Notes under the pieces: model-generated
What the model was told of the DNA's origin: nothing
The model's input: only the letters and a program-made list of their open reading frames with translations
Databases searched by the model: none
Assembly (NCBI GenBank): GCA_026989655.1
Contig: JALSIX010000056.1
Location: 1 to 64,000 of the forward strand
DNA length: 64,000 nt
Direction of reading: 5' to 3'
Source: Caldilineaceae bacterium
GTDB taxonomy: Bacteria; Chloroflexota; Anaerolineae; Caldilineales; Caldilineaceae
Position numbers and translations under genes: made by a program
In this document: in pieces, positions 7,523-19,161 of the stretch
Numbering within the stretch: the stretch's first letter is position 1
Layout: each line of letters starts with the position of its first letter

Positions 7523-8020
7523 CTACGGGATGGGTTGGACGGACAGGACGCGTGCCGGGGCCGGCTTCTCCGACACCGGCCGGCCCATGAGACGGTCGAT
7601 CTCCGCGCGTATCTCGGCCAGGTCGTTGAAGTCCAGGTAGACGCTGGCGAACCGGATGTAGGCCACCTGGTCCACGTGGGCCAGCTCGTCCAGCACCAGG
7701 TTGCCGATGATCTCGCTCTTGATCTCGGCCCGGCCCATGCCCAGCACCGTGTCCTCCACGTGTTGGGCGATGCTCTCGATGGTGTTGCTGCTGATGGGGC
7801 GCTTGGCCGCGGCGATGCGGATGCCGGTCAGCAGCTTCTGCCGGTCGAAGGGCTCTCGACGGCCATCGCGCTTGATCACCAGCAGGCTGGGCGCCACATG
7901 TTCGTAGGTGGTGAAGCGTTGGCCACAGCTCCGGCACTGACGCCGTCGCCGGATGGTGTCCCCAGCCTCCCGGGTGTCGATGACCTTGTGTTGTTTCGAG
8001 CCACAGTGCGGGCAGATCAT
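7523..8020 (-). CDS. nrdR: Transcriptional repressor NrdR
   Basis: Nucleotide-sensing repressor of ribonucleotide reductase genes, 165 residues from ATG 8020. The N-terminal zinc ribbon shows MICPHCG and [11 protein letters not shown]. An ATP-cone follows, with [16 protein letters not shown] and a helical core ending [12 protein letters not shown]. The frame is open to 8083, but the family always starts at the CPxC ribbon, so 8020 is preferred, although no strong ribosome site is visible there. It heads the nrdR-nrdJ transcription unit, and two NrdR boxes lie 60-106 bases upstream, implying autoregulation. A Pro-rich tail of ~15 residues follows the conserved core. Confidence 0.96.
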
Positions 8021-8079
8021 CGGAGTGCTGTCGACTGGTTGGCAGTCCGCCTCGTTGGAACGCCGGTTTGTCGGACAGG

Positions 8080-8126
8080 GCACAACATCTAGTGGTTTTG
8101 CCGTATACCCATACTAGATATTGGCC
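8080..8126 (-). promoter_or_regulatory. Paired NrdR boxes
   Basis: Two sites resemble the known NrdR box (acaCwAtATaTwGtgt). On the minus strand, 8080-8095 reads CCACTAGATGTTGTGC, matching 12 of 16 positions. On the plus strand, 8111-8126 reads ATACTAGATATTGGCC, matching 11 of 16. Their centres are 31 bp apart, about three helical turns, which is the usual NrdR arrangement. They lie between the predicted promoter and nrdR, so bound NrdR would block transcription of nrdR-nrdJ. Confidence 0.75.
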
Positions 8127-14172: not shown

Positions 14173-15615
14173 TTACAACGCATATTGCAGGGGTTGTTGG
14201 GCCAGGCGGGCCAGCAGCTCTTCACCCACCCGGGTGACGTCTCCGGCCCCCAGGGTCACCACCACGTGGCCGGGGGCCACTGCCTGGAGCAGGTGTTCCA
14301 CGGTGGCGTTCAGGCTTCCGGTGTACTGGATGGAGGCATGGGAGCTGGCCGCCACCAGGTCCTGGGCATGGATCTGGCCGCGGTCCTGCTCCCGGGCCGG
14401 GTAGATGTCCGTGATCAGGGCGTGGTCGGCCTGGTGGAAGCTCTCGGCCAGGGCCTGGAGCAGGGTCTGGGTGCGGCTGAAGGTATGGGGCTGGAACACC
14501 GCCCAGAGGGGACGGCCACGGTAGCGCTGCCGCGCGGCGGCCAGGGTGGCCTGGACCTCCGTGGGGTGGTGCGCGTAGTCGTCGATCACGGTGACCCCAT
14601 CCTGGGTGCCCTTGAGTTCGAAGCGGCGGGCCACTCCTGGGAACCGGGCCAGGCTCTCCAGGGCCTGGGCCATCTCCACGCCACAGTGGCGGGCTACCAC
14701 CAGGGCGGCCAGCGCGTTCCGCACGTTGTGGTGTCCGGGTATCTGGAGCTCCAGTTCCCCCAGGGGCGCGCCCCACCAGCGAACCCGGGCCCGGATCCCG
14801 CCCTGGGGGGTGGGCTCCGGGGCCTCGCCGCGCACGTCCACGTGGGGGGCCAGGCCATAGGTGAGCCACCGGCCCCGGGTGGGGGCGAAGGCCCGCAGCT
14901 CCTCCGCGCCGGGGTCGTCGCCGCAGGAGACCACGGCCCCCTCCCGGTGGACCCGGTCCACGAACTGCATGAAGGCCCGCCGGAAGCTGGCCGGGGAGGG
15001 GTAGCAGTCTGGGTGGTCCCAGTCCACGTTGGTGAGGACCGCGATGTGGGGGGTCAGCCCCAGGAACATGCGGTCGTACTCGTCGGCCTCGATCACGAAG
15101 TAGGGGTGGGTGCCCCAGTGGCTGTGGCCGTAGCCGGGCAGCTCCGAGCCGATGATGTAGCCCGCGTCCACACCGGCCTGGTGGAGGACCTGGACGATCA
15201 TGGCCGTGGTGGTGCTCTTGCCGTGGCTGCCGGCCACCGCGATGGTCGGACGGTGTGCCAGCAGGGCGCCGAGGAACTCCCGTCGTTTGACCACGGGAAT
15301 GCCCAGGGCCGCTGCGGTGGCCCGTTCCGGGTTGTGGGGCCCGATGGCGCTGCTGATGAGGACCACATGGGGGCGTTCCTCGGCAGACAGGGCGCGGAGG
15401 GGCTCCCCGCTCTGGTCCAGGTGGATCCGCGCGCCCTGGGCCGCCAGGGCCTGGGTCCGGGCACTGGCCTGGACGTCGCTGCCGCTCACCTGGATGCCCT
15501 GTTGGAGCAGCACCTGGGCGATGGGGGCCAGGCCGCTTCCTCCGATGCCGATCAGGTGGACCCGCAGACCAGGATGGGAACGGGCCAGGAGATCTCTCCA
15601 GCGGTGGGGGGCCAT
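14173..15615 (-). CDS. murC: UDP-N-acetylmuramate--L-alanine ligase
   Basis: Adds L-Ala to UDP-MurNAc, 480 residues. Mur ligase domains are in order: Rossmann start [21 protein letters not shown] loop [13 protein letters not shown], central [28 protein letters not shown], and the C-terminal domain with [11 protein letters not shown] and [12 protein letters not shown] 15615 is used because GAGGATAGGACA precedes it; a GTG at 15633 in frame lies inside the upstream gene. It starts 4 bp after the stop of the CvpA-like gene at 15620, so the two are coupled. Confidence 0.96.
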
Positions 15616-15619
15616 TGTC

Positions 15620-16168
15620 CTATCCTCGAACACGCATCAGCAGCAGCACCGCGATGGGGATCATCCACCAGGTGGGCGAGGGGACCACCGCCTGGGGGAG
15701 GATCCGGAGCAGGGCCTGGGCCACGGGCGACAGATCTGGCACCACCAGGCCGAAGCGGCTGAGGGGATACCCGTAGACATGTTGGAAGTACCAGAGGGTC
15801 CCGGCCACCAGGTAGCCGTTGAGCCCCCCGATCAGGAGGCTCAGGATGGTCCCCTGGGGCGGGGGCAGGGGCCTGCCATCGAAGACGATGACCTGGCCCG
15901 CATACCCCGCGAAGACCATGGCCACGAAGACCGTGGAGTACAGGGTGCCCAGGAGGAAGGGGGGATCCATCTCCGCCAGCTCTCCTCTCAGGGCCTGGGT
16001 GACCAGCCGTTGCACGGTGGGGTTGAACTGTTGTTCGACGAAACTCAGCAGGAAGATCCCCACCATGATGATCATGGTGCTGCCCAGCTCCTTGGAGTAT
16101 CCTCGGGCCACGCCCACCAGAGCGATGATCAGGGCGATGGTGCCGAAGTAGATCTCGAGCGCTCCCAT
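15620..16168 (-). CDS. CvpA-like integral membrane protein (second of pair)
   Basis: 182 residues with about four or five hydrophobic segments: an N-terminal one ([25 protein letters not shown]), one near [14 protein letters not shown], one at [18 protein letters not shown], one at [18 protein letters not shown], and a C-terminal helix. The RGYSKE turn after helix 1 matches the RGxxRE signature of CvpA (colicin V production family). AAGGAAAG precedes ATG 16168. It sits between the first CvpA-like gene and murC, 14 bp and 4 bp from its neighbours, so it belongs to the dcw operon. Function is unknown; a link to envelope synthesis is inferred only from position. Confidence 0.75.
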
Positions 16169-16182
16169 GGGCTTTCCTTGGC

Positions 16183-16827
16183 TCAGGTGGCCGGGCGCAG
16201 GCTCCGGGCGGCCAGGACCAGGAGCAGGATCACCAGGGCCATGAACACGAACGGCCGTTGGGCCGACGAGGCGTCCCAGAAGAGGTCCAGGCTGTCCCCG
16301 AAGAGGGCCCAGGTCCGGCCCAGGATCCGGAGGACACTCTCCTCCGGCGAGGCGGGCAGGCGGTCTCGGATCTCCGGTGCCACCAGGGATGCCAACAGGG
16401 GCAGGAAGATCCCCAGGTAGACCAGCCCGTTGACCATCCCCACCAGGGCGGCCCGGATCCCGGGGCGGCTCACCGTATCGGGCACCAACATGTTGGTGAC
16501 CAGGTAGGTCAGGAGCAGCAGAGCGGCCCAGAGCAGGAAGACCACGGTGGAGGTCTGTTCCGGGCGCACCAGGTTGGGGGCCTCCCGGAGCAGGTCCAGG
16601 GCATCGCCGTTGCCGGCCAGGCCGCCTGCTCGGGCGAAGTACAGGAACTTCCAGAACAGGTTGATCAGGGTTCGGAGGGCGTTCGCGTAGCGCCACAGGA
16701 ACAGGTAGCTGCCGAAACCCACCGCGAACACCGCCATCTCCCGGACCAGTCCCCGGCGGTAGCCGATCCAGCCGAACAGGAGCAGGTAGAGGAGGAAGGC
16801 AATGGTCAGCTCGATGGAGTCGCTCAT
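16183..16827 (-). CDS. CvpA-like integral membrane protein (first of pair)
   Basis: 214 residues. The first membrane helix ends in GYRRGLVREMAVFAVGFGSYLFLW, the CvpA signature, and three or more hydrophobic stretches follow (TVVFLLWAALLLLTYLV, GLVYLGIFLPLLASLV, VFMALVILLLVLAA). Its ATG 16827 overlaps the murG stop in an ATGA junction, so it is translationally coupled to murG. The two CvpA-like proteins are only loosely alike and may form a heteromeric membrane unit, which is speculation. Confidence 0.78.
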   Translation of the reverse strand: MSDSIELTIAFLLYLLLFGWIGYRRGLVREMAVFAVGFGSYLFLWRYANALRTLINLFWKFLYFARAGGLAGNGDALDLLREAPNLVRPEQTSTVVFLLWAALLLLTYLVTNMLVPDTVSRPGIRAALVGMVNGLVYLGIFLPLLASLVAPEIRDRLPASPEESVLRILGRTWALFGDSLDLFWDASSAQRPFVFMALVILLLVLAARSLRPAT

Positions 16828-17972
16828 GGGCTGGATCGCTCCTGGGCCAGGGAACGGAGCTGGGCCGCGATGGCCTGGGCCGCCTGGGGTCTGGCCAGGC
16901 CACGCAGGCGTTCCCGCATCCGCAGGCGCCGTTCCGGATCGGCCAACAGGGCCGACACGGTGGGAACCAGGGCCTGGTCCAGCTCCGGATCGGGGACCAG
17001 CACCGCGCCTCCGGCCTCCACCAGCTTCCGGGCATTGGGTTCCTGGTGGCCTCCGGCAATGGGCAGAGGGACCAGGACGCCGGGCAGGCCGGCCACCGGA
17101 AACTCGCCGAGGATGCTGGCCCCTGCCCGGGAGATCACCAGGTCGGCACCGGCCAGGGCCCAGGCCATGCCCCGGTGCAGATAGTCCACCGGATGGTACC
17201 GCCGGGCCAGGGCCTCTGGAAGCTCCGGCCGGTGCGTCGCCAACAGGGGCCAGTCCCGGGTGCCCACCACGTGGACCAAGGGGCCGTGGGCCAGGAGCTC
17301 GGCCAGGCCTGCCCACACGGCCCGGTTGATGCTGCGGGCCCCTCGGCTGCCGCCGAAGACCAGGGTCAGGGGCAGGTGGGGCTCGTCCACCGCGCCCAGG
17401 GCCTCCATCAGCCGGGCCCGGGCCGCCCTCGGATCCTGGACCGCCTCCAGCAGTTCCGGGCGCACCGGATAGCCGGTGACCACGGCCTTCTCGCCGAAGA
17501 AGGAGGCGGCCTCCTCGAAGCTCACCGCGACCCGCTGGGCCAGTCGGCTCAGCCACCGGACCGCGAGGCCCGGCGTCATGTCCGGCAGGTAGATGAGCAC
17601 CGGCACCCGTCTCCAGCGGCTGGCCACCACCACCGGGGCGCACACATAGCCCCCGGTGACGAAACAGACCTGGGGCTGAAAGCGGTCCACGATGGCCAGG
17701 GCCTGCCGTACGCCGACCATCATTTTAATCGCGTTGCCGGCTACGGCCAAAGGCCGTTGGCCCCGCAGCGCGCCGGTCTCCACGGCCCGGTAGGGCAGAT
17801 GGGCCCGGCTCACCAGCTCCCGCTCCACCCCTGTCGGGCTCCCCACCCAGAGCAGGGCCGTTCGCTCAGCGGACCCGACGCCGGGCCCGGGAGCGGGCTG
17901 GAGCCTTGCGGCCACGGCCAGCGCGGGGTACACGTGACCGCCGGTGCCGCCACCTGAGATCAAAATGCGCAT
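16824..17972 (-). CDS. murG: UDP-GlcNAc--lipid I N-acetylglucosaminyltransferase
   Basis: GT-B glycosyltransferase converting lipid I to lipid II on the inner membrane face, 382 residues. It begins MRILISGGGTGGHVYPALAV, the GGTGGH donor/acceptor loop; VTGGYVCAPVVVAS and the C-terminal FGGSRGARSIN and SRAGASILGEF motifs follow. The frame is open to 18020, but the motif and a GAGGAT site fix ATG 17972. This start lies 107 bp inside the ftsW reading frame, an unusually long overlap. The stop overlaps the next gene by ATGA. Confidence 0.95.
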   Translation of the reverse strand: MRILISGGGTGGHVYPALAVAARLQPAPGPGVGSAERTALLWVGSPTGVERELVSRAHLPYRAVETGALRGQRPLAVAGNAIKMMVGVRQALAIVDRFQPQVCFVTGGYVCAPVVVASRWRRVPVLIYLPDMTPGLAVRWLSRLAQRVAVSFEEAASFFGEKAVVTGYPVRPELLEAVQDPRAARARLMEALGAVDEPHLPLTLVFGGSRGARSINRAVWAGLAELLAHGPLVHVVGTRDWPLLATHRPELPEALARRYHPVDYLHRGMAWALAGADLVISRAGASILGEFPVAGLPGVLVPLPIAGGHQEPNARKLVEAGGAVLVPDPELDQALVPTVSALLADPERRLRMRERLRGLARPQAAQAIAAQLRSLAQERSSP

Positions 17973-19161
17973 GGGCCATCCTCGGGCCGCTGGAACTTCG
18001 GCCGACCGGGACGTGGCCATAGCGGCCGATGCTGAGCAACATCCCGGTGGCCCCCAACATGGTCACCAGGGAGCTTCCCCCCAGGCTGATGAACGGCAAG
18101 GGCACCCCGGTGGGGGGGGCCAGGGCCACGGCCACCGCCATGTGGACCAGGGCCTGGATGAGAACCAGGCAGGTGATCCCCGCGGCCAGGAGCGCGCCGA
18201 ACATGTCCCCGGCCTGGCTCGCGATGCGAAAGCCTCGGTGGGCGAAGAGGCCGTACAGGCCGATGACCAGGAGGCCACCCAGCAGGCCCAGCTCCTCGCC
18301 GATGACCGCGAAGATGTTGTCGCTCCAGGCCAGGGGCAGCCGCGCGGGGTACTTGGCCTGCCCCTGGCCCAGGCCCACCCCCAGAGGCCCACCCTCGGTC
18401 AGGGCCTGGGCCCCCTGGGCGATCTGCTGCTCGGTGCTCTGGAGGGGATCCCGGTAGGAGGCCAGATAGCTCTCCAGACGGGCCTGGGCGTGGCCGTTGT
18501 AGTAGATCAGCAGGAAGAGGGTGAGGGCCGCGATGGCCCCTCCCAGGAGGATCTGGCGCATGTCCGCGCCGGCCAGGAAGAAGACCAGACCCCCCGCGGC
18601 CACCAGGATCACCGTGGTGCTGATGTCCGGTTCGGCCACGATGAGCCCGGCCACTCCTCCCATGAGCACCCCGAAGGGCACCAGGCCGTAGCTGATGTCC
18701 CGGATACGCTCCCCCTTGCTGGCCAGCCAGGCGCTGATGTAGATGAGGAGCGCGACCTTGGCCGGCTCGCTGGGCTGGATACTGCCGTTGAACAGGGTCC
18801 GGCGGGCACCGTACCGGTCGTCTCCGATCACCAGGACCGCGATCAGGCCCAACAGGGCGATGGCCATGATGGGGATGCTGGACCGTTCCCAGACGGTGTA
18901 CGGGATCCGGGCCGCGACGATCAGCGCGGCCACCCCCACCGGAATCCACTGGAGCTGGCGCAGGGCGAAGCTGTAGGGCGAGCTCCCGACCTCCAGCGCC
19001 TTGGGAAACCCGGCGCTGAGGACCATGAGCAGGCCCAGCAGCAGCAGGGCACTCACCACGGTGACCAGGCCCCAGTCGTAGGGCCGAGCAGGGAGCGCCT
19101 GGCCCTCCCTGGGCTCCTTCTTCTCAGAGGCACGTGGCCGAGAGGAACGTGTGCTGACCAT
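17866..19161 (-). CDS. ftsW: Peptidoglycan glycosyltransferase FtsW
   Basis: SEDS-family septal glycan polymerase, 431 residues, about ten membrane helices. Motifs: RTLFNGSIQPSEPAKVALLIYISAW, AEPDISTTVILV, the extracytoplasmic ARLPLAWSDNIFAVIGEELG and TGVPLPFISLGGSSL. GGGAGGAGG precedes ATG 19161. The normal SEDS core ends near RYGHVPVG. The last ~36 residues are Arg/His-rich and read the murG 5' end in another frame, so the tail may be unselected. It should pair with the transpeptidase at 23394-25226. Confidence 0.95.
   Translation of the reverse strand: MVSTRSSRPRASEKKEPREGQALPARPYDWGLVTVVSALLLLGLLMVLSAGFPKALEVGSSPYSFALRQLQWIPVGVAALIVAARIPYTVWERSSIPIMAIALLGLIAVLVIGDDRYGARRTLFNGSIQPSEPAKVALLIYISAWLASKGERIRDISYGLVPFGVLMGGVAGLIVAEPDISTTVILVAAGGLVFFLAGADMRQILLGGAIAALTLFLLIYYNGHAQARLESYLASYRDPLQSTEQQIAQGAQALTEGGPLGVGLGQGQAKYPARLPLAWSDNIFAVIGEELGLLGGLLVIGLYGLFAHRGFRIASQAGDMFGALLAAGITCLVLIQALVHMAVAVALAPPTGVPLPFISLGGSSLVTMLGATGMLLSIGRYGHVPVGRSSSGPRMAHAHFDLRWRHRRSRVPRAGRGRKAPARSRARRRVR

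Follow-up and report, generated by a model that had tools for sequence, protein, structure and literature searches.

Small membrane proteins of the CvpA (Colicin_V) type are encoded, as a pair or singly, at one position of the cell-wall (dcw) operon of the Chloroflexota class Anaerolineae, between murG and murC, and they most likely represent a known family in a new and conserved context. This placement is kept in 63 of the 65 class genomes with a complete murG–murC interval, a near-universal residence that ties the CvpA family to cell-wall building in this class. The CvpA family is widespread and poorly understood, and the murG–murC position offers a specific clue to its function in this phylum.

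Genomic context of the two genes

The two genes, here named A and B, were analysed in a 64,000-nucleotide stretch of DNA from a member of the Caldilineaceae (the window), in which gene names were assigned from the translations and from the matches of those translations in relatives. The order of genes in the window is ftsI-murF-mraY-murD-ftsW-murG-A-B-murC-murB-ddl-ftsQ-ftsA-ftsZ; an nrdR-like gene (7523-8083) follows ftsZ on the same strand. Gene A (16183..16827, minus strand) encodes a CvpA-like membrane protein of 214 aa, and gene B (15620..16168, minus strand) one of 182 aa with five helices and a C-terminus reading RVRG. The two are co-directional. The TGA of murG (16824..18020, minus strand) overlaps the ATG of gene A as ATGA, the gap of 14 bp between A and B contains the ribosome-binding-site-like sequence AAGGAAAG (16172..16179, minus strand; recognized from the sequence) ahead of gene B, and murC (14173..15615, minus strand) starts with its ATG at 15615, 4 bp past the stop codon of gene B. 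The coordinates agree with the first-pass annotation of this DNA, in which two CvpA-like genes had been described between murG and murC with the same ATGA overlap and the same 4 bp before murC. A profile search of the genome returned A and B as its sole Colicin_V matches.

Relationship to the CvpA family

Searches with the Pfam profile PF02674 (Colicin_V) scored A at 25.2 bits (E 1.8e-5) and B at 25.6 bits (E 1.4e-5), both about 4 bits below the gathering score of 29.3, and some B orthologues exceed this cut-off (G013, 32.5 bits; G004, 29.7 bits); the CvpA similarity claimed from the first reading of the DNA was thus upheld. At E<=0.1 the profile was matched by 26 of the 30 B-type relatives scanned and by 11 of the 30 A-type ones, and a search of NCBIfam with A and B returned no match. 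Profile-profile comparison of A with B (hhalign 96.9%, E 1.8e-10) identifies the two as paralogues. Since alignment of single A and B sequences to the lone E. coli CvpA sequence is weak, the assignment rests on profiles and conserved landmarks, and by these measures A and B belong to the CvpA superfamily or are closely related to it. A CvpA-protease of the MarP type was excluded by the lengths of the two proteins (214 and 182 aa) and by the lack of a protease domain in Pfam or NCBIfam, and the Pfam search gave no match of either protein to the MurJ, VTT (DedA) or DUF368 profiles.

The CvpA landmarks kept in the alignments of both types are the succession of helix 1, an RGxx(R/K)E motif and helix 2, and a G..(N/R)G motif in helix 4; both are also present in the E. 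coli CvpA sequence. In gene A they correspond to R25-G-L-V-R-E30 after helix 1 (16738..16755, minus strand), where R25 and G26 are at least 90% conserved, and to G130-M-V-N-G134 in helix 4 (16426..16440, minus strand). Their counterparts in gene B are R22-G-Y-S-K-E27 after helix 1 (16088..16105, minus strand), with an invariant E27, and G114-G-L-N-G118 in helix 4 (15815..15829, minus strand), with G114, N117 and G118 invariant; the RGYSKE of B is the same motif as the RGFVRE of E. coli CvpA. The most conserved residues of both proteins are glycines, one asparagine and one cytoplasmic motif.

Although A and B share with E. coli CvpA the helix-RGxxRE-helix start, the G..G..(R/N)G pattern in helix 4 and a similar size, they differ from it in having a predicted fifth helix and a basic cytoplasmic tail, in scoring just under the gathering threshold and in being two tandem paralogues. 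The gene neighbourhood also differs, as E. coli cvpA lies between dedD and purF, adjoining the division gene dedD, whereas A and B reside in the dcw operon. In Firmicutes, too, CvpA-family membrane proteins, YshB and Spd_0370, have a division gene as partner in their operon (PMC4406074, PMC8687745); B. subtilis yshB, whose homology to CvpA has been reported (PMC8687745), shares one operon with zapA (PMC4406074). These proteins are zapA-linked, while genes of the A/B type, paired or single, occupy the murG–murC interval. The canonical CvpA of Anaerolineae belongs to the same superfamily and is encoded outside the dcw operon, elsewhere in the genome, in several members of the class; it forms a separate clade, and no non-dcw CvpA match was found in the window's genome.

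Predicted structure and topology

The AlphaFold2 model of B contains five helices (mean pLDDT 92.7, pTM 0.88), and that of A was obtained with moderate confidence (mean pLDDT 85.3, pTM 0.70). The charges of the loops follow a positive-inside pattern, with basic C-terminal tails in both proteins. A and B are predicted to be inner-membrane proteins of five helices, whose N-termini, by this charge rule, would lie outside and whose C-termini would lie inside. Neither a fold search of the PDB with the B model nor a profile search of the PDB for B gave a significant relative.

Distribution and evolutionary history

Most genomes of the family and class to which the window belongs contain homologues of A and B, and the best 80 of the 344 loci in the genome collection are nearly all labelled as Caldilineaceae, other Anaerolineae or Chloroflexota. 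Within the 65 Anaerolineae genomes sampled, the murG–murC interval holds the pair in 43, one CvpA-like gene in 20 (G029 counted as single) and none in two (G047 and G235). A further 12 class genomes have a B-type gene right after murG, as judged by coordinates. The pair is thus not confined to the window's genome, being present in 43 class genomes, with the qualification that it is lineage-dependent: about one-third of the intervals carry a single gene and two carry none. The idea of an obligate A-B pair was rejected on account of the 20 class genomes with one gene, and these single-copy lineages also argue against an obligate A-B complex. Outside the class, a single CvpA-like gene occupies this interval in ten genomes from seven families, while murG and murC are near each other with no CvpA-like gene between them in 23 genomes from about 20 families. 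Two variants were also observed: four genomes of the window's own family (genus g16, L086-L089) retain in the murG–murC interval a single CvpA-like gene that has diverged strongly, and G047, which has no dcw-linked gene, encodes a CvpA-like domain fused to what appears by eye to be a C-terminal CAP/SCP domain (L268:2586-3713).

In a tree of 99 proteins, the B orthologues form one clade (support 100/99, 38 rows) together with ten single-copy genes and both copies of G055. Gene A falls in a poorly resolved part of the tree, in a loose group with other single-copy genes and out-of-class dcw copies. Both lie outside the clade of the class's canonical, non-dcw CvpA (support 99/95). The A type seems to be the form found across the phylum, and B a second paralogue spread over the class; the simplest reading of the tree, though not a proven one, is that an A-like gene was present in the operon of the phylum, that a B-type paralogue arose in the class and that differential loss followed. 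Separately, a single-copy B-like gene of G055 was independently duplicated in tandem, which re-made a murG–murC pair (L072, 2471-3606; 100/99). Purifying selection acts on both genes, with dN/dS values of about 0.06-0.27 for A and 0.04-0.15 for B.

Possible functions

The conserved placement in the wall operon leads us to predict an envelope-related role for A and B, and gene neighbourhood is the chief basis for assigning them a part in envelope assembly. The explanation favoured here, and held tentatively, is that they are non-enzymatic membrane accessory or scaffold proteins of the CvpA type, recruited to the lipid II/divisome operon. Co-expressed with MurG, they would serve the membrane-bound part of wall synthesis, namely MraY/MurG and possibly FtsW, with contacts that might be made through the conserved cytoplasmic RGxxKE element, the G..NG helix motif and the basic tails. 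The A type or the B type would each be able to work alone, and a heteromer might form where both are present. A link between CvpA and the wall has also been reported in Agrobacterium, where cvpA insertions combined with deletions of LD-transpeptidases are synthetically lethal (PMC11527210). The proximity of E. coli cvpA to dedD and of B. subtilis yshB to zapA speaks for the same reading. Against the scaffold reading stand the two class genomes and the many out-of-class families that lack a CvpA gene at this interval. Nor can a divisome role be assumed, because the zapA-linked CvpA relative of S. pneumoniae is located in the membrane and not at midcell (PMC8687745); in B. subtilis, an ezrA mutant without zapA-yshB grows normally once zapA alone is supplied (PMC4406074).

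A possible but rather less probable alternative is a general role in membrane homeostasis, whereby A and B would maintain bilayer integrity or tolerance to membrane stress, as CvpA does in bile-salt resistance, and would reside in the operon through joint expression of envelope genes, with no direct part in wall synthesis. The dependence of deoxycholate resistance on cvpA in EHEC and Vibrio (PMC6705877) agrees with this reading, as does the location of the pneumococcal relative away from midcell. It also accords with the retention of canonical CvpA in Chloroflexota that lack murein: members of family f37, whose genomes are small and give no murG match, still encode a canonical CvpA of about 90–100 bits, and this family is consistent with Dehalococcoidales, which have been reported to lack dcw genes (PMC10608941). 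Because canonical CvpA persists in such genomes, the CvpA family as a whole is no dedicated wall factor, and a simple co-loss of CvpA with peptidoglycan is ruled out. Against the homeostasis reading stand the stable occupation of one exact interval across the class and in several other classes, and the separation of the dcw-linked proteins from the clade that holds the canonical CvpA of Anaerolineae.

A stronger proposition, which we regard as unlikely, is that the CvpA proteins encoded in the dcw operon form a dedicated and hitherto undescribed part of the apparatus for lipid II or septal synthesis in Chloroflexota, with a gene gain in the dcw cluster and a wider role of CvpA in wall synthesis. 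A survey of the dcw cluster described it as having 'likely no gene gain' (PMC8871954), and the murG–murC CvpA genes add a gene to it. Colicin is not mentioned in a Chloroflexota survey that examined dcw genes (PMC10608941), and none of the open-licence papers searched mentions both colicin V production and dcw. Within this open-licence literature, no description was found of the paralogue pair or of its conserved place in the dcw cluster.

It is improbable that the two proteins constitute a flippase moving lipid II or undecaprenyl phosphate. The first-pass annotation had predicted for them an undescribed membrane function in lipid II export, carrier recycling or division; the family and the embedding in the wall operon have stood, and an envelope-related role is predicted from the conservation, while export and carrier recycling show no evident gap. 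The genome encodes elsewhere three strong MurJ matches, one BacA/UppP, one DUF368/PopT and three DedA/VTT proteins, which leaves lipid II export and carrier recycling without an obvious vacancy, and the idea that the pair fills in for a missing flippase or carrier transporter is unsupported. Membrane proteins adjoining murG do invite such a reading, and a review notes that CvpA is partly similar to transporters of the major facilitator superfamily (PMC12173739). The conservation is nevertheless centred on glycines, an asparagine and a single cytoplasmic motif, the PDB fold search with the B model found no transporter fold, and many lineages have just one of the two genes. A bacteriocin or secretion role is very improbable, being suggested only by the family name and its historical link to colicin V (PMC6705877), with just wall and division genes around the pair in the stretch examined.

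Other arrangements of CvpA genes were seen in the genomes compared. At about 3059-5958 of L266 (G045), a canonical CvpA gene is followed by a mutS2-like gene, and Colicin_V matches in several further families of Chloroflexota sit in open frames about 400 aa long, which may represent fusions of CvpA with a second domain.
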